In this document: positions 6,640-64,000 of the stretch, piece by piece
Layout: every line of letters begins with the position of its first letter
Numbering within the stretch: position 1 is the stretch's first letter
Assembly: GCA_030710605.1 (NCBI GenBank)
Contig: CP092863.1
Coordinates: 135,313,069 to 135,377,068 of the forward strand
Source of the DNA: Cordylochernes scorpioides
Lineage: Eukaryota; Arthropoda; Arachnida; Pseudoscorpiones; Chernetidae
Reading direction: 5' to 3'
Length of the DNA: 64,000 nucleotides
Translations under genes and position numbers: made by a program
The notes under the pieces: model-generated
The model's input: only the letters and a program-made list of their open reading frames with translations
Told to the model about the DNA's origin: nothing
The model's database searches: none

Positions 6640-6980
6640 TATATATATAAAAGTCAATGTCTGTCTGTCTGTCTGTTTCGCGATAAACTCAAAAACTACT
6701 GAACCAATTGGTACCAAATTTTGCATGTCGCTTTTTATAAACCTGAGGAATATTTTCGGCTAGATTTTGATCAGTATTTTTGGCTATTTCTTTTTTTTTT
6801 TTCATTTGAAGAACTTTTTTTTTACGCGGAGTAATCCGGAATGGAATAAATACCCAAATATGGCCATTTTTTATAAGCATCGGTGGTTCAGTGGTAGAAT
6901 GCTCGCCTGCCACGCGGGCGGCCTGGGTTCAATTCCCGGTCGATGCATTTTTTTTTTTTTACAATTTTTAAAACTCATTT
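6640..6980 (+). mobile_element. Helitron 5' portion carrying a tRNA-Gly
   Basis: It opens TCTATATATATAAAAG followed by a (TGTC)n run, a start typical of arthropod non-autonomous Helitrons. It contains the tRNA-Gly at 6877-6947, followed by poly-T and ACAATTTTTAAAACTCATTT. The same downstream bases follow the tRNA-Gly at 57 kb. No 3' hairpin is found here, so the element is interrupted, probably at the PLE that begins near 7 kb. Confidence 0.6.
6877..6947 (+). tRNA. tRNA-Gly (anticodon GCC)
   Basis: The 71-base cloverleaf is intact. The acceptor arm is GCATCGG paired with TCGATGC (one G-T pair), the anticodon loop is CTGCCAC, and the B box is GGTTCAATTCC. A discriminator A and a run of T (pol III terminator) follow. 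Its location inside a repeated Helitron-like unit suggests a transposed copy. Whether it is transcribed cannot be seen. Confidence 0.85.
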
Positions 6981-26145: not shown

Positions 26146-26398
26146 TGTGGCGACTACACTTTGCTTCAACGCATGCGCGGGCGTCAACACTTCACTACGC
26201 ATGCGCGTGGGACGTCATCAGAGACGCTGGTTTTTTAGCGAAAAACATGTAGGCTTACTCCAACGGTCGTTTACTCCAACCGTTGTTTCTTTTCTCTTTT
26301 TAATTTCTCTTGCTTTAAAATAAATTAATTTTAATTATAATTTTATCAGCAGCCTTTCCACAAGCCACACAACACAGCACATCAACAACCATCCTACA
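26146..26398 (+). repeat. 5' LTR of the young Gypsy
   Basis: It starts TGTGGCGACTACACTTTGCT and ends CCATCCTACA. It contains two ACGCATGCGCG motifs at about 26168 and 26200. No clear TATA box is seen. Confidence 0.95.
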
Positions 26399-26489
26399 AA
26401 TTGGTGAGCCGGACGTGATGCAAAAGTTGTTTTAATCACACTTCTATATATTTTTTTATTTCATCCACGAAACTTTCAACAGCCCCAGA

Positions 26490-27305
26490 ATGCAAGACGC
26501 AACTACGGAACATCCGGAAGGGCCAACATCCACGGCACCCTCCCAAATATCAAGATTGGCTTTCCGTGCACCACCATTCTGGCCCAACAACGTTGAACTG
26601 TGGATAAGCCAGCTAGAAGCCGCTTTCGGTCTAGCCGAGATCTCCCGCGACGAAACTAAATTCCAAGCAACAGTAACGAGCCTAGACCAGCCAACCCTTA
26701 CTTACGTCGCGGACATCGTAACGGCCCCCCCACCCTCTGGTAAATACGATGCGCTGAAAGCAGGCCTTCTCCAACGACTTGGTCAATCAAAACAAACTAA
26801 AATCTTACAGGTTCTGGATGGGCGTCCCATGGGAGATCAGAAACCATCAACAGTCCTTGCCGCGATGCAACATCAGGCAGGAAGAAATTTCTCCGATACA
26901 GCACTGAAAATGCTGTGGACTCGACGCCTACCTCAGGACATAAGGGCCGCTCTCGCAGCATCCTCTGAAACAAGTTTGAGTAAGCTGGCGGAAATGGCAG
27001 ACAACATACACGAAGCCATACTGCCAACGGTCTCAGCAGTGGACCAACCAAGCACAGGTCATAGCGCGGAAGCCCACCAACAGCTGATGACGCAAATCCA
27101 AGACTTGCATACGCAAATCGAAGCTTTGAAGTCATCCATGGACACCCCACACAATCGCTATCCGAACGATAGATACCCACCCCACAACAAAAAGGGAAAC
27201 GCAGGAACTTGCTGGTACCATATGAAGTTTGGAGCGCAAGCTAGGAAGTGCCTTCAACCATGCAACTTCAAGGTCCAGGGAAACGAATACGCCCGCCGTC
27301 AGTAG
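26490..27305 (+). CDS. gag: Gag polyprotein of the young Gypsy
   Basis: A 271-residue uninterrupted frame starts 92 bases after the LTR. Gag forms the virus-like particle that holds the RNA. Residues 25-190 form a capsid-like region ([40 protein letters not shown]). A zinc knuckle near residues 238-255, [18 protein letters not shown], has the CxxH-x-FG-x-x-A-x-x-C-x-x-PC form common in arthropod Ty3/Gypsy Gags. The last 58 bases overlap pol in the -1 frame, so pol is probably made by -1 frameshifting. Confidence 0.9.
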
Positions 27306-30157
27306 GAGCCACTGACGGCGCAGGCCTTACTCGCCGGCTCTTCATTACGGACCGACGCAGCGCCTATTTGTTTTTGGTCGACACCGGAGCCGAAGTCTCA
27401 GTGATTCCACCACCAGTAAAAAACGCTAGGCCCTCGCACAGGCAGCTTTTCGCAGCTAACGGATCTATCATCCACACTTACGGGGAACGACATCTTGAGC
27501 TTGACCTCGGTCTCGGACGTTTATTCCGTTGGCCTTTCATCATAGCCGACGTCGGCGTGTCCATCATCGGCGCAGACTTTCTCCGACATTACGGGCTGAC
27601 AGTAGACCTGCGTAATCACCGGCTGAGCGACCCAGTATCTTCCCTTCACTCCATTGGACAAGTTTCCCCTTCCCCCGCTGTTAGCATTCACCTTACAATC
27701 GCCAATTCTCCTTACTCCAGAATACTCAGACAATTCCCAGAGCTCACTAGTCAGAATCTTGTAAAAAGCCCTCCCCGTCACTCAGTGACTCATCATATCG
27801 TCACAAAGGGCCCCCCGATTGCAGCAAAACCGCGACGACTCCCCACGGACAAACTCGCCGCGGCAAAGAAAGAATTCGCCTTCATGATGGAGAAAGGCAT
27901 CTGTCGTCCATCCAAATCACCATGGGCCAGCCCTCTCCACCTAGTACCCAAAAAAGACGGCTCGCTACGACCATGTGGAGACTACAGGAAACTGAATGCC
28001 GCTACCGTCCCCGACCGATATCCAGTCCCTAACATTATGGACTTTGCATCGCATCTGCATGGTAAGAAAATATTTTCTACTATCGATCTGGTTAGAGCGT
28101 ACCACCATGTGCCCGTGGAAGCTAGAGATATCCCTAAGACTGCCGTTATTACGCCTTTCGGCCTTTTCGAGTTTCCCCGCATGTCCTTTGGCCTATGTAA
28201 CGGAGCCCAAACCTTTCAAAGGCTCATCAACGAAGTACTCCAAGGTTTGGATTTTGCATATGCCTACATTGACGACGTGCTTATCGCATCCGATTCAGAA
28301 AATCAACATGTATCCCATCTTCAACAACTTTTTGGTCGCCTTCGAGACTACGGCCTGACGATCAACGAAACCAAATGCACCTTCGGCCAACCTTCAGTCA
28401 AATTCTTGGGGTTTATCATCACTAACGCTGGAATCTCGCCGGACCCTCAGCGAGTACAAGCAATTAAAGACATCCCAATCCCTGATACTGTCGGAAAACT
28501 TCGACGTTTTCTGGGTATGTTAAATTTCTATCGGCGCTGCCTCCCCAATGCCGCTAGTACTCAGGCACCACTCCACGCCATGGTCGAAGGGCGCAAGAAC
28601 GCATCCTGCCAATGGACCCCAACAGCACTCCAGGCTTTCGACCAGTGCAAATTTCAACTAGCCAACGCTGCCCTCTTGCACCATCCTTTTCCAGAAGCGC
28701 CTCTCTGCCTTACGGTAGATGCCTCGGATTTTGCTGTGGGCGCCGCGCTTCACCAGCAAGTTGGCAACAATTTCCAACCAATAGCGTTTTTCTCAAGGAA
28801 ACTAGACGCTGCACAAAGAAAATACAGCGCATACGACAGAGAACTCCTGGCGGTATACTTGGCTATCAAGCATTTCAGGCATTTTTTGGAAGGGCGACAA
28901 TTTCCGGTCTATACGGACCACAAACCTCTCACATACGCCTTTCAACAAAATCTGGACAAGGCCTCACCGCGCCAATGTCGACACCTCGATTTCATCGGGC
29001 AATTCACAACCGACATCCGCCACATCGCGGGCTGTGAAAATGTACCTGCAGATTTCCTGTCACGCGTGGAACCCATCTCCCACCACCAACCTTATGACCC
29101 GAAATCCCTAGCCGAAGCGCAAGCAGTAGACCAGGAGCTACAAGCTCTCTTGACATCGGAAAACCGCAGCTCACTACAACTGGAAAAGGTACAAATCCCA
29201 GAAACGAACATTTCCCTGTACTGTGACGTTTCAACAGCAAAACCCAGACCTTTCGTACCCGCACCCTGTCGCCGCATAATTTTTTCTGCATACCACAACT
29301 TGTCTCACCCCGGAGTACGAGCTACTACAAGGATGGTCACCGCCCATTACGTCTGGCCGGCCGTCAAGAAGGATTGCGCACTTTGGACTCGCGCCTGCCA
29401 CCGCTGCCAAGTCTCCAAAACCGCTAGACACACAAGAACGCCCCTTCAGTCGTTTAGTCCCCCAGACGGAAGGTTCAGTCATGTTCACATTGACCTGGTC
29501 GGACCATTACCAACGAGTGAAAACTATCGGTACATATTCACCTGCGTCGACCGATTCACTAGGTGGCCCGAAGCCCTACCCATACAGGACATCACCGCCA
29601 AAACAGTAGCAAATGCCTTCCTATCGGTCTGGATATCTCGTTTTGGCGTGCCAACAAAAGTGACTACAGACCAAGGCAGGCAGTTTGAATCAGCACTTTT
29701 CGGTGAGTTGACACGGCTTCTGGGAATCAACAGAATAAGGACATCACCCTACCACCCAGCAGCAAACGGCCTGGTAGAAAGATTCCACAGACAGCTGAAA
29801 GACTCCCTTCGCTGTCACGATTCCACGAGCTGGTCCTTGAAACTTCCCCTGGTGCTCCTAGGGATTCGTTCGTCGCTAAGGGAAGATCTCAACACCACAA
29901 CCGCTGAGCTGGTCTATGGGAAGCCCCTACCCCTTCCAGGAACTTTTTTCGAGGACCCCCCCCTCTGCAAGCTCGCCTACCGAACCGTGGCTGGAGGACT
30001 TCAAGCGCGCCATGGCATCTCTGAAACCTGCACCAAGCAAACCACATGGGAACCGCCACGTTTACGTGCCCAAGCCACTCGAGACATGTTCCCATGTCTA
30101 TCTACGTCGGGACCTGATATTGCCACCGCTAGCTCCCCCATACGACGGTCCATATGA
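27248..30157 (+). CDS. pol: Pol polyprotein of the young Gypsy (PR-RT-RH-IN)
   Basis: A 969-residue frame with domains in the Ty3/Gypsy order. The protease has [12 protein letters not shown] near residue 43. The RT has [13 protein letters not shown] (motif A) and [11 protein letters not shown] (motif C, near 338). RNase H has [15 protein letters not shown] near 490 and [11 protein letters not shown]. The integrase has an HHCC zinc finger ([11 protein letters not shown] to CHRCQVS, 681-730) and a DDE core ([29 protein letters not shown]). The listed ATG lies inside gag, and the true N-terminus depends on frameshifting. After about residue 900 the frame goes astray: the real C-terminus continues in another frame, because a run of eight C near 29955 is out of register by one base. 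Confidence 0.9.
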
Positions 30158-30296
30158 AGTCCTTTTTAGGAAACCCAAAATTTACAAACTGAAGATTAAA
30201 AAGAGATCCACGTGGGTGTCAATCGACCGCCTCAAGCCTGCTTTCACATCAGAAGGACCGATGTTTTCCCAAGACCCGAACTTAACAAACCAATAA
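29955..30296 (+). pseudogene. Integrase C-terminus of the young Gypsy, out of frame
   Basis: This frame reads [20 protein letters not shown], then [20 protein letters not shown] and VSIDRLKPAF, the GPY/F-type integrase end, and stops at 30296 just before the polypurine tract. It joins the main pol frame if the C-run is one base shorter. Either a disabling insertion or a homopolymer sequencing error explains it. Confidence 0.8.
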
Positions 30297-30340
30297 GATT
30301 GCATAGGATCGCTGGAAAGATCCTACTGGAGGGGGAGTAG

Positions 30341-30593
30341 TGTGGCGACTACACTTTGCTTCAACGCATGCGCGGGCGTCAACACTTCACTACGCATGCG
30401 CGTGGGACGTCATCAGAGACGCTGGTTTTTTAGCGAAAAACATGTAGGCTTACTCCAACGGTCGTTTACTCCAACCGTTGTTTCTTTTCTCTTTTTAATT
30501 TCTCTTGCTTTAAAATAAATTAATTTTAATTATAATTTTATCAGCAGCCTTTCCACAAGCCACACAACACAGCACATCAACAACCATCCTACA
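30341..30593 (+). repeat. 3' LTR of the young Gypsy
   Basis: It is identical to the 5' LTR over its whole length. It begins directly after GAGGGGGAGTAG and ends TACA, followed by ACCT. Confidence 0.95.
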
Positions 30594-30599
30594 ACCTAA

Positions 30600-42221: not shown

Positions 42222-42252
42222 CAGAGTGGCGGTGAAATCGCAATAGTTATAA

Positions 42253-43045
42253 TATCAATTTTTTTTATTTCAAGGTAAAATATCGACTATTTCTAACCTT
42301 TTTGGATGAGGTATGAAAGGGTGAATTATGAAGAGTAATGACGAACGGAAAAACAAAAGTGTCCAGGGATGGGAATCGAACCCACAATGTTCCGCTTACC
42401 GTGCAGATGCCGTGTCCACTAGGCTACCCTGGACGTATTTTTCCATTCGTAAATGATACATAAAGTAACTTATAATACAATATAATATAATGCGGCCTGT
42501 GATTGTAAAACGACGCTTGAAGTTACACCGCATGAGTTTCTTTTAAACGAAATATCAAAATTTTTTATTTCAAGGTAAAATATCGACTATTTCTAACCTT
42601 TTTGGGTGAGGTTTGAAAGGGCGAATTATGAAGAGTAATGACGAACGGAAAAACAAAAGTGTCCAGGGATGAGAATCGAGCCCGCAATGTTCCGCTTACC
42701 GTGAAGATGCCGTGTCCACTAGGCTACCCTGGACCCTCAAGTGTCGTTTTACAATCGCAGGCCGCAGTGTATTATATTGTATTAAAGTTACTTTAAGTAT
42801 CATTTATGAACGGAAAAATACGTCCAGGGTAGCCTAGTGGACATGGCATCTGCCCGGTAAGCGGAACATTGTGGGTTCGATTCCCATCCCTGGGCACTTT
42901 TATTTTTCCGTTCGTCATTACTCTTCATAATTCACCCTTTCATACCTCATCCAAAAAGGTTAGAAATAGTCGATGTTTTACCTTGAAATAAACAATTTTG
43001 ATATTTCGTTGAAAAGAAACTCATGCGGTGTAAACTTCAAGTGTC
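42253..43045. repeat. Three tRNA-like SINE family B units, two inverted
   Basis: The tRNA-like modules lie at 42361-42434 (-), 42661-42734 (-) and 42822-42895 (+). Each reads GTCCAGGGTAGCCTAGTGGA (A box) and has GGTTCGATTCC-type B boxes; the copy at 42661 is altered. Each is linked to a ~150-bp tail with TTTTTCCGTTCGTCATTACT. Copies 2 and 3 face each other, making a large inverted repeat. The anticodon loop reads GGT but lacks the usual U33, so these look like SINE heads rather than tRNA genes. Confidence 0.7.
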
Positions 43046-56935: not shown

Positions 56936-57204
56936 ATATATTTGCCTTATCTGTCTGTTTGTCTGTTTGAAGCTCACGGATGGGATTTTTCATAACCATC
57001 GGTGGTTCAGTGGTAGAATGCTCGCCTGCCACGCGGGCGGTCTGGGTTCGATTCCCGGCCGATGCATTTTTTTTTTTACAATTTTTAAAACTCATTTATA
57101 TATTATACAAGAATGACATCCACGGCGCCAATTTATAATTGTAACGAATAGTATTTGAATAAAAGCATTTAATCGGGTAAAACCCGGGCGTTGCCGGGTC
57201 ATTC
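56927..57204 (+). mobile_element. Helitron with an internal tRNA-Gly
   Basis: It opens TCTACTTATATATTTGCC followed by TCTGTCTGTTTG, contains the tRNA-Gly at 56996-57066, and then the shared 3' region (ACGGCGCCAATTTATAATTG; GGGTAAAACCCGGGCG) with the terminal hairpin, slightly shortened. CTAG is degraded. Unlike the 6.6-kb copy, both ends are present around the tRNA. Confidence 0.65.
56996..57066 (+). tRNA. tRNA-Gly (GCC), one acceptor mismatch
   Basis: Identical in architecture to 6877-6947: anticodon loop CTGCCAC, B box GGTTCGATTCC, then T-run. The first base is C instead of G, so the 1-72 pair is lost. It may be a tRNA pseudogene. Confidence 0.75.
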
Positions 57205-57747: not shown

Positions 57748-58203
57748 TATAATATAAAAGCCAACAATGAAGAGTGAATGTAAGATAAAAAGCCAACAAT
57801 GAAGAGTAAATGTAATATAAAAAGCCAACAAGAAGAATGAATGTAAGATAAAAAGCCAACAATTAAGAGTGAATGTAAGATAAAAAGCCACAATGAATAG
57901 TAAATGTAATATAAAAAGCCAACAATGAAGAATGATGTAAGATAAAAAGCCAACAATGAATAGTAAATGCAATATAAAAAGCCAACAATGAAGAATGAAT
58001 GTAAGAAAAAGCCAACAATGAAAAGTAAATATAATATAAAAAGCCAACAATGAAGAGTGAATCTACTTATATAATTGCCTTATTCTGTCTGTGTGAAGTT
58101 CACTGTGTGAAGTTCACGGATGATTATGGTCAGAATATAAATAAAAAGGCAACAATGAAGAATGAATGTAAGATAAAAAGCCAACAATGAAGAGTAATTA
58201 TGA
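57748..58203. repeat. 32-bp minisatellite array 2
   Basis: Same alternating units as array 1, with small indels, interrupted at 58061-58130 by a Helitron-like 5' start (TCTACTTATATAATTGCCTT). The array is cut by the Pao element at 58204 and resumes at 63514. Confidence 0.85.
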
Positions 58204-58700
58204 TGTTCAGGATTAGAGTTATTCTCTTTTATTTTTATTTGTGTCATGCAATTATTTGTGTACATCGTGTAAATTCATTATTGGTTTTTGTATAAGATTA
58301 TATTCGTTTTCTTTGTAGGCAAATATCAGACTCACCTAAATTGTAGGTATTATGTAAATTTACTGTCTCTTTTTTGTTTTGTGTAATATATGAAATATAT
58401 GTAAATTTAGTTAGTATAAAAGGGATAATTTTGGATGAATAAAGGTCAGTGTGAAAGTGAGGCTGGTCTAGGTGTCTTGCTTGACCTCCTTTACAGGTTT
58501 AAATTGTCTCCACAGGTGAGACTGGTCCCTCGACATCTGAATCTAAGGGCGCCTAGGCAGACAGCCTTTATCGCGCCAACAACTGGTCCCTCGTCATCTG
58601 AATCTAAGGGCGCCTAGGCAGACAGCCTTTATCGCGCCAACAACTGGTCCCTCGTATCTGAATCTAAGGGCGCCTAGGCAGACAGCCTTACGCGCCAACA
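58204..58700 (+). repeat. 5' LTR of the Pao element
   Basis: It runs from TGTTCAGGATTAGAGTTATT to CGCGCCAACA. It contains a TATA box, AGTATAAAAGGG (about 58418), AATAAA (58438) and three ~57-bp tandem repeats starting TGGTCCCTCG and ending ATCGCGCC. Each repeat copies the start of the primer-binding site. Confidence 0.85.
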
Positions 58701-58729
58701 AGTGGTCCCTCGAGCCGGATAGAAGCGCT

Positions 58730-60270
58730 ATGGAGACGCAGTCAACGGATTTGGAGGGAACTCCTCGTATCAGGAGGAGTACTAGAAAAAACCTTGGAAT
58801 CGGCCAGTAAGATATCCGGACGCAGAGCCTCAGAGAACAATTCCCATGGCCACAACAGAGCTGACTGGGGAGGGAATAGACTCGACCAGGACAACGGATG
58901 ATGTTCCAGACGGACCCAGCCTTGTGGAAACTTACGGGAAGTTGAAAAGGATACTGGAACAAAAGCTGGAACAGGTGGACGGTCAGCTGCTTCGAGCCGA
59001 TCAGATCGTTTAAGGAAGCGAATGGAGCTTCAGATGGTGAAGCTGAAAATTGAAAGAGAAAGGGAAGCTTCGGTCAACTCGCTGCAGCAGCGGGAATTGG
59101 AGCTGCGAAGGAGCCTGATAGAGGACGACTCCCAGTGCCTTAGCAGCGACGACGATGTCCCTGAAGACACCAAAGCCGAGAATGATGAGAAATACGTGGC
59201 GGAACGGGAGACAAGGCCGAAAGAAGAGCCATTGCTGTCGCAGACTACCCCTGTATTTCGTCCCGCAACGCAGCCTGGTCGCTGCGCGAATGATCCAGAG
59301 CCTACTTCTGGTGCCAGCGAATTGGCAATGGCGTTGGTAGAGGCTTTCAAACAGCAGGGCCTAAACACGGAGAGATTATGGCGCGTCAGGGTTCGGGAGG
59401 ACAGTTGCCTGTATTTTCCGGGAACCCCCTTGATTGGCCGGTGTTCATCCAGCACTATCGGCAATCGACCAAGGACTGTGGGTATTCTCCAGCTCAGAAC
59501 ATGGCGAGGTTGGAGAGAGCGGTGCAGGGAGATGCAAGAAGGTCAGTGCGTGCTCTCATGATTGTCCCGGCCAATTCTGAGGTGGTAATACAGGTTGGAG
59601 CAGCGGTACGGACAGCCTGAGTACGTGGTACAGGCCTTAATTGAAATGGCCAAGAAGACCCCATCGCCGAAGGAGGGTCGATTGTCTGGGATCTTGGATT
59701 ACGCCAACGCTATAAATAACCTGGTGACAACGGTGAAGGCGCTGGACACCCCGAGCCACCTGCAAAATCCTCAATTGAAGAAGGAGTTGGTAGACAAATT
59801 CCAGATGCGCTGCGGTTACAGTGGGAGAATACGTGTTGATGCGAGGGGGTGCAGGAGAAGTCACATTGGAAGACCTTTCTAAGTGGATGAATATAAAAGC
59901 TGCAGCAGTCAGCATGGTGACCATCCCGGACTTCAAAAAAGGCCGTGAGAGGGATAGTGGGCATCATAGTTATGACGGCGGTTGAGTCGGGTTCTCCCGG
60001 AAATGCGCGGCGTGTAACGAGGCCGGTCATTGCATTCGGAATTGCCATCTATTTAGGTCAAGTGACATCGATGACCGATGGAGGATGGTCAAGGAGAAGA
60101 AGTTGTGCATTTCCTGTTTGCGAAAGGGACATGGCATAAAAACCTGCCGCCAAAAGAAGGTGTGTGGTGCGGGTGGATGTGAGCGGAGCCATCATCCCCT
60201 TCTGCACAGTGAGAGGAAAGACCAGCGGCAACCTCGTCGACCGACACCAGAACCCCAGCAGAAATAAGTG
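58730..60270 (+). pseudogene. Pao gag (coiled coil, capsid, zinc knuckles)
   Basis: A short start at 58730 (METQSTDLEGTPRIRRS) ends in a stop. From 59022 a charged coiled coil follows (LKIEREREASVNSLQQRELE), then in another frame the DUF1759-type capsid region, GGQLPVFSGNPLDWPVFIQH and AVQGDARRSVRALM. The next segment is LVTTVKALDTPSHLQNPQLK. Two knuckles close it: CNEAGHCIRNC and CISCLRKGHGIKTCRQKKVC. Several frameshifts, no full-length product. Confidence 0.8.
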
Positions 60271-60275
60271 GACTG

Positions 60276-61084
60276 TTGAATGGAAGCTCGCGATCCGTCA
60301 TACTGCGGGTTATTATGGTCCAACTGTATGGAAAGGATGGAAAGTCAAGGAAGGAGTGTGCGATTTTTGATGAATGCTCTTCCGTGACGATGATGGATGC
60401 GGATTTGGCGAATCAACTCGGACTACGGGGAAGGACTGACCCCCTGCGGCTCAAATGGACAGACGGGAGAATGCAGGAGATTTCACTTCCCGACGTGTTT
60501 CTTGTGAGGTCGGCCCCGTAGAGGGTGGCATAGATTCAGCCTGAATAATGTACGAACTGTACAAATCTCTGTCTTCCTGCTCAGCTATACAGATATGATG
60601 AGCTGTGCGAAAAGTGGAATCACCTAAAGGCGGTAAAAATACCAGATATGGGTAATATAAAACCGAGATTACTAATCGGTCAACCCCACATTAGGCTGAC
60701 GGCGGCGAGAGAAATCATAGAGGGAACTGGCGACTCTCCTATTTTGACAAAAACCCGTCTAGGGGTGGTTGGTACACGGTCCAACAGGCAATGTAAGCGG
60801 AAATGGGGAGATTTCTTTCTCTACCTTTGTGGTATCTGACGAGGACTTTCTTCATGATCTGGTGAAGGAGAATTTCAAAATTGAAAGCATTGGGTTAGGG
60901 GGCTGTTACCTCGTTCAAAACAGGACCTTCTGGCGGAGCAGAAGATGAATGAACTCATTCAACGAGTTGGAAACAGATGGGAAACTGGTTTGCTGTGGAA
61001 GGTGAACGAGGGGGATATGAGGCTACCTGATAACTACAGTGTTGCATTCAACCGTCTTATAGGAGTAGAACCAGAGGGAGGGAT
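60276..61084 (+). pseudogene. Pao protease and start of RT
   Basis: The frame at 60276 holds ECAIFDECSSVTMMDADLAN, a BEL/Pao protease-like segment in which FDECSS stands where DTGSS is usual. It continues with LKAVKIPDMGNIKPRLLIGQ and GDSPILTKTRLGVV. The last pol sequence is GNRWETGLLWKVNEGDMRLP followed by DNYSVAFNRLIGVE, the region just before RT motif 1. The catalytic RT motifs are missing because host-like sequence takes over. Confidence 0.8.
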
Positions 61085-61945
61085 CCAAGAACAAAGTGAG
61101 CGACCTGCTCAAGCCAATCTCCAGGGAGAAGCCCAAGGCAAAGGGCAATGATGATCTCCTGGTCTACAAGAAGATGCCAATCTCTGAGTTCATCTACGGG
61201 GACAACTACACTGAGATCCTCTACAATACCCATGAGATCACTCTGGATGACGAGACCATTGCCAACCACCTCTCCTCCACAGCAGAGATTAAGGAGAATC
61301 TTAAGGACATCAAAGTTCTGGGTCCGGCAGACATTAAGCGGCTGCTGAAGTGGAGGAGAGCACTGCGGGAGGAGCTGGTAAAGAGGGAGCCGGGCAGGGA
61401 GGCAGAGGAGAAGTTGGGGGAGGAAGATGTGGACGCCCTACTGGCCAAAGAGCTGGAAGAGGTCACTGGAAACATGCGCAAGGAGAAGAAGCGCAAGCAG
61501 AAGAAGCTCCAGAAGAGACAGACTCAGATGTTGAAGAGTGAGGCTGAGACCGACCTGCTGGCTGAAGACTATGACCTCTTCACTATCTCCAAGATCAAGA
61601 CCAAGAAAGCCTTGGAGACCATTGGAGCCGACCAGGAGCCCCCAGAGCTGGAGCCAGAACCAGAGGAGGAAGATGCTGAGCTGAACAAGAAGAAGCTCAA
61701 GTACTACAGCCGGGATGAGCTGCCCGACTACCACACAGAGGGCGACGGAGCCCCAAGTCTAGCTCAGAGGATAAGGACAGTGACGTGGTAGATGATGGAG
61801 ATGCTCTAGACTCAGCCAGTGATGAGGAAGACAATGAGGAGATTTCAGAAGACGAAGGACTTCCAGATTCTGAGAAATGTTCAGCCGAGAAATCTGAAAT
61901 TGATGATGATGATACCACTTCTGCCATTAAGGAAGAGGAACAGAC
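61084..61945 (+). pseudogene. Captured FTSJ3/SPB1-type pre-rRNA processing protein fragment
   Basis: The frame to 61791 matches the middle (DUF3381-type) region of FTSJ3/SPB1, a nucleolar protein with an N-terminal RNA methyltransferase, used in large-subunit ribosome assembly. Visible marks are ITLDDETIANHLSSTAEIKE, LKDIKVLGPADIKRLLKWRR, an acidic segment, RKEKKRKQKKLQKRQ and YDLFTISKIKTKKALETI. After a frame change near 61745 an acidic stretch continues (SSSEDKDSDVVDDGDALDSA). The methyltransferase domain before it and the SPB1 C-terminal domain after it are missing. No intron interrupts it, as expected for copying from mRNA. Confidence 0.75.
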
Positions 61946-62460
61946 TTACGACGATGACGACTTCAACATTCCTCAGTTCAGCATGACAGAATGGCAGACC
62001 ATGAAAGCCAACTACCGGTCGCAGCAAGTCACAATTCACATCAATTTTGAGAAGCTGGTCGATGCAGTCACCAAGGGAGACAAGATCACAGTGTACAACG
62101 CGTTGCGCAAGGGCCGCAGTACCACCGCCATGACCTGAACATCCTGATAGATGGCACCACACTACTGTTGATGGCCGTTGAGCGGGGCTTTGACGAAATT
62201 GTGGAGATCCGGTGTTGGGCGGCGCGAACCCCAACTTGGCCTTGCAGGGCGGCAAGACACCGCTCATGGTAGCGATGGAGAAGAACCAGGTACGCTGCCT
62301 ACTGGTGCTAGTGGACACCGGAGCCAGACTGGGCAGCCAAGATAACGACGGCAACTCTGTGCTCCACCTGGCATGTCGCCTGCGCCGTACCACCTGTGTG
62401 GAACATTTGCTGCAGTTGGGCGCAAACACCGGACCGACCAACAAGCGGTCGTTGAGGCCC
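61946..62460 (+). pseudogene. Captured ankyrin-repeat protein fragment
   Basis: NFEKLVDAVTKGDKITVYNA, then after a frame change TTLLLMAVERGFDEIVEI, GGANPNLALQGGKTPLMVAM, then GARLGSQDNDGNSVLHLACR, VEHLLQLGANTGPTNKR. These are about four ankyrin repeats (TPLMVA and SVLHLA signatures spaced about 33 residues). Frame breaks lie near 62125, 62205 and 62450. The parent gene is not identifiable. The base composition is much richer in GC than the surrounding DNA. Confidence 0.75.
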
Positions 62461-62973
62461 TGCCGGCTGGGGGACATCGATGCTGTGCTCAGCCATATGT
62501 CCATCCTGGAGGACAACTTTGAGTACACCATCAAGCACTGCAGCCCCTACATGAAGCTGGTCACCCCCCTGTTCCCTCTCCAGATCTTCTCCCTCAGGGA
62601 AGGCCCGCTCTTCGTCCTCAGCTTTGCCTGCTCTCTCATCTGCTATCACTCCCAGATGTGCCTCCTTTTCATGGCTCCGGCAGACTTCAACTTCCAGCAC
62701 AGGATGAAGACCTGCATGGACGGCGCCACCTCCCCCGTGGTGTCTGTTATCCTGAATGAGTTCCAACAGAAGTGCATCTCGCTGGATGGAAATTTTGTGT
62801 TCTGCCTTGTCAACCTAGTCAATGGCACCAACCTACACGGTGCTGATAAGGAGCAACAGCAGGCACCTGAGTTGCAGAAGGAGCAACAGCAGGCACCTGA
62901 ATTACAGACTGGGCAAGAGCTGCCACCTGAACCACATCCTGGGCAAGAGCTGCCACCTGGACCTCAAGGCTGA
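62461..62973 (+). pseudogene. Captured C-terminal coding segment, unrecognised
   Basis: The frame continues from the ankyrin part: NFEYTIKHCSPYMKLVTPLF, a hydrophobic stretch (REGPLFVLSFACSLICYHSQ), MDGATSPVVSVILNEFQQKC, then Gln/Glu/Pro repeats (KEQQQAPELQ twice; GQELPPEPHP, GQELPPGPQ) and a stop. I recognise no family. It may be the same host protein as the ankyrin part or a third transcript. Confidence 0.6.
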
Positions 62974-63006
62974 AAATGGATTTCGTCCCGAAATCGAGGG
63001 GAAATA

Positions 63007-63513
63007 TGTTCAGGATTAGAGTTATTCTCTTTTATTTTTATTTGTGTCATGCAATTATTTGTGTACATCGTGTAAATTCATTATTTGTTTTTGTATAAGA
63101 TTATATTCGTTTAATTTGTAGGCAAATATCAGACTCACCTAAATTGTAGGTATTATGTAAATTTACTGTCTCTTTTTTTGTTTTGTGTAATATATATGAA
63201 TATATGTAAATTTAGTTAGAGTATAAAAGGGATAATTTTGGATGAATAAAGGTCAGTGTGAAAGTGAGGCTGGTCTACGGTGTCTTGCTTGACCTCCTTT
63301 ACAGGTTTAAATTGTCTCCACAGGGGAGACTGGTCCCTCGACATCTGAATCTAAGGGCCACTAAGGCAGACAGCCTTTATCGCGCCAACAACTGGTCCCT
63401 CGTCATCTGAATCTAAGGGCGCCTAAGGCAGACAGCCTTTATCGCGCCAACAACTGGTCCCTCGTCATCTGAATCTAAGGGCGCCTAAGGCAGACAGCCT
63501 TAACGCGCCAAAA
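63007..63513 (+). repeat. 3' LTR of the Pao element
   Basis: It starts TGTTCAGGATTAGAGTTATT after the polypurine tract and ends CGCGCCAAAA, followed by TATGA. It has the same three ~57-bp repeats as the 5' LTR, with about ten scattered differences. Confidence 0.85.
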
Positions 63514-64000
63514 TATGATATAAAAAGCCAACAATGAAGAATGAATGTAAGATAAAAAGCCAACAATGAAGAATGAATGTAAGATAAAAAGCCAACAATG
63601 AAGAGTAAATATGATATAAAAAGCCAACAATGAAGAATGAATGTAAGATAAAAAGCCAACAATAAAGAGTAAATGTAATATAAAAAGCCAACAAAGAAGA
63701 ATAAATGTAAGATAAAAAGGCACCAATGAAGAGTAAATATAAAATAAAAAGCCAACAATGAACAATAAATGTAAAATAAAAAGCCAACAATGAAGAGTAA
63801 ATATAATATAAAAAGCCAACAATGAAGAATGAATGTAAGATAAAAGGCCAACAATGAAGACTAAATATGATATAAAAAGCCAACAATGAAGAATGAATGT
63901 AAGATAAAAAGTCAACAATGAAGAGTAAATGTAATATAAAAAGTCAACAATGAAGAATAAATGTAAGATAAAAAGCCAACAATGAAGAGTAAATATAATA
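63514..64000. repeat. 32-bp minisatellite array 3
   Basis: A continuous array of the same alternating 32-bp units (ATAAAAAGCCAACAATGAAG) that resumes array 2 after the Pao insertion and runs off the window end. Confidence 0.9.

Follow-up and report, generated by a model that had tools for sequence, protein, structure and literature searches.

The genomes of acutely transforming retroviruses are defective gag-host fusions that carry spliced host cDNA and depend on helpers. To our knowledge, the maize LTR element Bs1 has no reverse transcriptase (RT). In the available excerpts of PMC5408686 and PMC13317346, Bs1 is described as an LTR element with pieces of three cellular genes. Tan et al. (2016) have described LTR-mediated retroposition in metazoans, in which template switching inside the particle between the RNA of an LTR element and a host mRNA gives rise to LTR-flanked retrocopies (excerpts of PMC5408686 and PMC8232201). 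Capture by template switching has been described for LTR elements of both plants and animals (excerpts of PMC5408686, PMC8232201, and PMC13317346). The Anakin elements, as the excerpted text of PMC7642597 presents them, are Pao elements that acquired a chuvirus glycoprotein gene and multiplied it. A limited search of the open literature, including part of PMC3118150, found no BEL/Pao capture of host genes like the one reported here.

The stretch of Cordylochernes scorpioides DNA analysed here, called the window, is 64 kb long and corresponds to C1:135313069-135377068 of a genome that was searched over 2.62 Gb in 24 contigs. One element in it, of BEL/Pao-like type, is a case of LTR-mediated gene capture comparable to that of maize Bs1, to which recombination of two gene-carrying lineages is added. 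As far as the excerpted accounts of Bs1 go, both are LTR elements carrying host gene pieces; Bs1, however, is a plant element, whereas the present genome has two lineages with different host genes, found first separately and then in recombined form. In contrast to metazoan LTR retroposition, the captures became multicopy lineages (at least 19 and at least 13 other copies) and recombined. Anakin differs in having taken a viral envelope gene, with 13 elements reported complete in the available part of that paper, whereas here spliced host cDNA stands in place of pol. Unlike in acutely transforming retroviruses, nothing in the window element implies infection or cell transformation, and the FTSJ3 changes fit neutrality. 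Comparisons with phages, plasmids, and IMG/VR gave nothing useful for the window, and in a large protein search the ankyrin part led nowhere and the FTSJ3 part had one match.

The element lies at 58204-63513 of the window, on the forward strand like all its features given below, and a 5-bp TATGA duplication stands outside both ends (58199-58203 and 63514-63518, read directly and equal). Alignment of the LTRs placed the 5' LTR, TG...CGCGCCAACA, at 58204-58700 and the 3' LTR, with the terminus CGCGCCAAAA, at 63007-63513. The primer-binding site (PBS) TGGTCCCTCGAGCCGGAT was read directly at 58703-58720 and the polypurine tract lies at 62996-63006; the initial annotation had recognised all of these landmarks. 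The TG...CA ends and 5-bp duplication of BEL/Pao-type LTRs are present, the duplication in all three insertions checked, with CTGTG and AAGGT flanking one FTSJ3-type and one ANK-type insertion (see below), respectively. The 5' LTR contains three tandem 61-bp units. In both LTRs the three units measure 61-62 bp (58521-58712 and 63329-63511) and each opens with the first ten PBS bases; other 3' LTRs in which units were found have 1 to 4 of them. The pattern suggests that the second strand transfer slipped at an internal PBS-like site. Elsewhere in the window, two tRNA-Gly(GCC) genes (6877-6947 and 56996-57066) belong to a dispersed repeat of 123 bp that may be a tRNA-derived short element. A Gypsy-like element (by eye) at 26146-30594, whose 254-bp end repeats are identical and whose open frames span 289 and 970 codons, is apparently young, and two overlapping inverted-repeat pairs of 221 and 212 nt surround tRNA-Thr genes on opposite strands at 42251-43033.

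Between the LTRs, remains of gag extend over 58902-60267 in several frames, with a DUF1759-like part at 59589-59882 and a zinc-knuckle-like part, read by eye, at 59986-60267. Gag with DUF1759 is typical of BEL/Pao elements; the match here (PF03564, E 7.8e-4, 19.9 bits) is under the gathering score of 25.4. An aspartic-protease-like region at 60213-60518 (PF13650, E 0.036, weak and under the curated cut-off) is followed by the protease-RT linker of a Pao-like pol at 60549-61070, and 60445-60970 matches family copies at 96-97%. From these weak profiles and family-typical motifs, the element would be classed as BEL/Pao-like. Comparison with FTSJ3-type copies places a deletion junction with about 6 filler bases at 61071-61076. 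Next come spliced FTSJ3/SPB1 cDNA (61077-61913, DUF3381 and an acidic region, 4 host introns absent), the template-switch site GATGATGATGAT (61901-61912), spliced ankyrin-gene cDNA with a 30-bp tandem repeat at its end (61913-62957, 5 host introns absent in the matched part 61918-62785), and a native Pao-like pol tail with the polypurine tract (62951-63006), which is the same tail as in the RT-bearing copies L062 and L063. The junctions previously put at 61084, ~61945, and ~62985 are corrected to 61071-61076, 61901-61912, and about 62951-62958. In the insert, DUF3381 of Spb1 is matched with E 2.1e-29 and Ank_2 with E 2.7e-11.

About 866 bp are deleted between 61070 and 61077, comprising the N-terminal half of RT and the methyltransferase part of FTSJ3, both held by FTSJ3-type copies; none of the 13 FTSJ3-type loci that were read shows this loss. 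The window copy has neither RT nor what comes after it in pol, and without the complete pol of BEL/Pao it is at most a defective derivative of that group. It had been proposed that the element traded the 3' half of pol for host sequence. The loss is real but larger, and takes in the N-terminal half of RT that FTSJ3-type copies keep. The reading frame steps through 1, 0, 2, and 1 in the insert and the copy is broken; read from the frames, each step is a one-base loss, and some may be assembly errors.

Intron-bearing parents, the search for which had been suggested as a check, were both found in the genome, FTSJ3 on C7 and an ankyrin gene on C15. The FTSJ3 part of the window matches parent exons at 95-99% in four pieces with introns between, and the ankyrin part matches parent exons in four pieces at 95.5-100% and a fifth at 81%. 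The 53 gap positions of the fifth piece are a 53-nt GT-AG intron of the parent, absent from the element. For the FTSJ3 introns spanned by another copy, L032, GT-AG bounds were found by script in 6 of 7 and by eye in the seventh. Because the parent exons carry introns that the element lacks, both segments derive from spliced mRNA, and the element holds what identifies LTR capture, an LTR-enclosed copy that lacks the introns of the host gene. Profiles and parents together confirm the intron-less FTSJ3/SPB1 middle domain and ankyrin repeats first noticed here. The FTSJ3 parent is present as two inverted copies ~70 kb apart, C7:33456948-33460496 (-) and C7:33530880-33532677 (+).

The genome search found FTSJ3 in at least 19 other element copies, and N-terminal sequence of the ankyrin gene in at least 13, 6 of which span the ankyrin part. 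Thirteen FTSJ3-type and six ANK-type loci were read together with 1.5 kb of sequence to either side. In FTSJ3-type copies the linker leads into the N-terminal half of RT, which passes into FTSJ3 at CAAPGGW, and 12 of the 13 copies end in the Pao-like tail (L040 gave none). ANK-type copies leave Pao at 60975 and hold 416-434 bp absent from the window copy, most of which matches C15 at 86869449 and 86892743; the host sequence that corresponds to their N-terminal part lies 6 kb upstream of the remaining ankyrin exons. Distinct 3' flanks were found for 8 of 11 FTSJ3-type loci with a readable flank and for all six ANK-type loci (L034 and L040, among the 19, gave no 3' flank). Open in-frame fusions extend over 873 codons from the locus start in the ANK-type L022 and L023 and over 696 codons across FTSJ3 in L028. 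Most copies read are broken by stops or frame breaks, with two of six ANK-type loci open through and no FTSJ3-type locus open throughout. Several other ankyrin-bearing copies look like deletion derivatives. Five (C1:197333768, C20:22499946, C18:63616301, C18:63511647, and C18:60016206) apparently pass from the N-terminal part of the ankyrin gene straight into the tail repeat, with the middle absent, and are probable deletion derivatives.

Relatives with RT are also present. The linker (60445-60970) has matches at 96-97% in 39 other places among 40 scored of 95 candidates. The 40 comprise the window, 10 FTSJ3-type, 7 ANK-type, and 17 RT-bearing copies, 4 without RT where expected, and 1 unreadable (L060, which is N). 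RT past the junction was read in five of the 17 (L051, L053, L055, L056, and L059) and is presumed in the other 12; L048-L050, outside the 40 scored, also carry it. L048-L051 have YMDD, in agreement with the YXDD of RT, and RVT_1 is matched in L048 with E 2.7e-7 and 30.9 bits (cut-off 29.6). The four copies without RT where expected (L054, L057, L058, and L061) share overlapping sequence, by eye downstream pol, and a 66-residue piece of L061 had no Pfam match. In the nine copies where the two could be paired, RT start and tail lie ~3.1 kb apart in seven and 2.6 kb apart in the two on C16, as compared to 2.0 kb in L028. No third host gene was recognised in 200 bases from eight of the nine sampled copies, a small sample, and 20 sampled genome stretches (190 kb) had no match to LTR, gag-pro, or insert. 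An RT-bearing copy at C16:84447214-84449980 has ankyrin-type tail repeats near its 3' end and is possibly a third kind of recombinant.

The capture junctions can be read from these copies. At the left FTSJ3 junction, the RT-bearing L051 reads GATGATTGTGCTGCCCAG and the FTSJ3 parent CTCTGTGCTGCACCTGG; the switch in L028 falls within an 8-base microhomology, TGTGCTGC, common to RT and FTSJ3 and in the same frame. At the right FTSJ3 junction the native tail LAKLDLKAENGFRPEIG runs on in frame as EAKLDLKAENGFRPEIGGKYVQD in L028. Microhomology would be expected of template switching; the overlap is 8 bases at the left FTSJ3 junction and 12 at the switch in the window copy, but only about 1 base at the left ANK junction. 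The absence of introns from the captured parts would also be expected of LINE-type processed pseudogenes inserted into Pao copies, but pol is replaced rather than interrupted, no poly(A) was seen by eye at the junctions, and no copy was seen in which pol borders the gene at both ends and a poly(A) tail is present. Since the fusions are moreover in frame and the copies move as LTR units with 5-bp duplications, we give LINE activity next to no chance as the source.

The DUF3381 part is joined to the ankyrin part only in the window among the copies found (40 of 100 candidates scored). Left of 61901 the window copy is FTSJ3-type and to the right it is ANK-type; the 12-base GAT run GATGATGATGAT is common to both, and the frame is kept across it. 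In the FTSJ3-type L028 the host exons go on in order beyond the switch point, the acidic part being gapped. ANK-type copies in turn have ankyrin-gene sequence ahead of the switch point that is missing from the window copy. Since host order continues across the switch point in both lineages, it is the window copy that is the derived recombinant. We therefore consider it highly probable that FTSJ3 and ankyrin mRNAs were captured separately and that recombination of the two element lineages then gave the window copy. The initial annotation had proposed template switching between co-packaged RNAs with two host segments taken up in a row. The capture of spliced mRNA and template switching are supported, but consecutive capture of two host mRNAs in this element is not, given the separate multicopy lineages, each carrying one gene beyond the switch point. 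A single round in which successive switches captured both mRNAs, the single-gene lineages being deletion derivatives, would account for both genes lying in one unit in the window copy; it is extremely unlikely, since FTSJ3 beyond the switch in L028 and ankyrin sequence before it in ANK-type copies are both missing from the window copy, which is thus not the ancestor.

Separate capture followed by recombination is also consistent with further mosaics. In L022 and L023, the ankyrin repeat passes at GCAAGAG into a short stretch that otherwise precedes the FTSJ3-type tail, so that recombination between the lineages is not a single accident. By eye, the tail of the window copy from about 62951 resembles the native tail of L062, L063, and the FTSJ3-type copies more than it does the six ANK-type tails, which makes a further switch possible. 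The linker by itself assigns the left part of the window copy to neither lineage, its mean difference being 2.8% to FTSJ3-type and 3.0% to ANK-type copies. Sorting of lineages by LTR was also tried. All 10 diagnostic U3 columns were ANK-type, mostly through one indel and with L022 and L023 not included, and LTR types are mixed in both lineages; without clean sorting by lineage, LTR haplotypes cannot say which RNA gave U3 or U5. A low-GC3 stretch at 61788-61923 (reached by 0 of 60 permutations) was considered as a third source and rejected, as FTSJ3 exon matches cover most of it.

Both flanks of the window element consist of a 32-bp minisatellite, which contains TATGATATAAAAA 4 times and the repeat core 29 times, and the TATGA duplication alone is therefore weaker evidence than usual. 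It is backed by the 5-bp duplications of the two other insertions and by private states common to the window LTRs. Between the two LTRs, 6 of 327 compared sites differ; the closest among 17 other LTRs differs at 15 of 322. In six alignment columns (5 events, two columns being one insertion) both window LTRs have a state found in none of the 17. The window LTRs are sister LTRs and the element integrated as one unit, as had been concluded from the TATGA duplication. This argues against a DNA-level crossover between integrated FTSJ3-type and ANK-type copies, for which both lineages are suitably dispersed and 96-97% like the window in the common part of pol. Such a crossover would pair LTRs from two insertions and leave mismatched flanks, unless its product later retrotransposed, and the sister LTRs with matching 5-bp duplication make it very unlikely. 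An assembly chimera of two element copies joined at the GAT repeat has a slighter chance still. The assembly may be deletion-prone here, given the single-base frame steps and the 11 bases, spread over 9 places, that the 3' LTR has and the 5' LTR does not (2 bases in the reverse direction), and the minisatellite flanks point the same way; however, the join is bounded by a matching duplication and by sister LTRs that share private states, 12 bases of overlap are few for an assembler to join two copies, and another mosaic of both lineages exists in two insertions, L022 and L023.

The order of events was probably as follows. In the FTSJ3 lineage, reverse transcriptase would have switched between element RNA and spliced FTSJ3 mRNA, with an 8-base match on the left; in the ANK lineage, spliced ankyrin-gene mRNA would have taken the place of an overlapping part of pol. 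Both lineages, lacking RT, would have multiplied as passengers, presumably with RT and integrase from RT-bearing relatives. One RNA of each lineage was then probably co-packaged and copied into one cDNA, with the switch inside the 12-base GAT run, and the chimera, with its internal deletion, would have integrated into the minisatellite; that the deletion arose in the same cycle is conjectural.

The Ks comparison suggested for element and parent was carried out for the FTSJ3 part, and over 246 codons the window copy has dS 0.046 and dN 0.023 against the parent. Single copies have dN/dS of 0.25-0.61 against the parent, and the uncorrected ratios for changes among the 13 copies are 0.56-0.57. Simulations with the same base changes and CpG context brought these ratios close to neutrality, and synonymous changes were 39 of 118 among single-copy FTSJ3 changes (37.8 expected) and 8 of 24 among partly shared ones (7.2 expected). 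Five of the nine changes common to all copies are synonymous (2.1 expected, reached in 61 of 2000 simulations), and these nine may include changes in the parent. The FTSJ3 changes among copies fit neutrality, and nothing seen suggests that the element retains FTSJ3 because it uses it; weak selection, or selection at an early stage, is possible. Because the FtsJ match in L028 begins at profile position 24 of 181, the first catalytic lysine is presumably missing from that capture, and the FtsJ domain is lost altogether from the window copy.

The capture of FTSJ3 is worth noting because this 2'-O-methyltransferase is reportedly recruited by HIV (excerpt of PMC9317671). One genome shows the stages of capture together, namely RT-bearing relatives, two multicopy capture lineages, intron-bearing parents, and a recombinant in which two unrelated host genes are fused with the frame kept at the switch, and with these side by side LTR-driven gene fusion becomes countable and datable. 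It is conceivable, although we think it unlikely, that the capture lineages are satellite retroelements that produced Gag-Pro-host fusion proteins and spread with their help, with recombination acting as a germ-line gene-fusion machine. If this is true, satellite fusion proteins could equip particles with a domain derived from an RNA methyltransferase or with an ankyrin adaptor.
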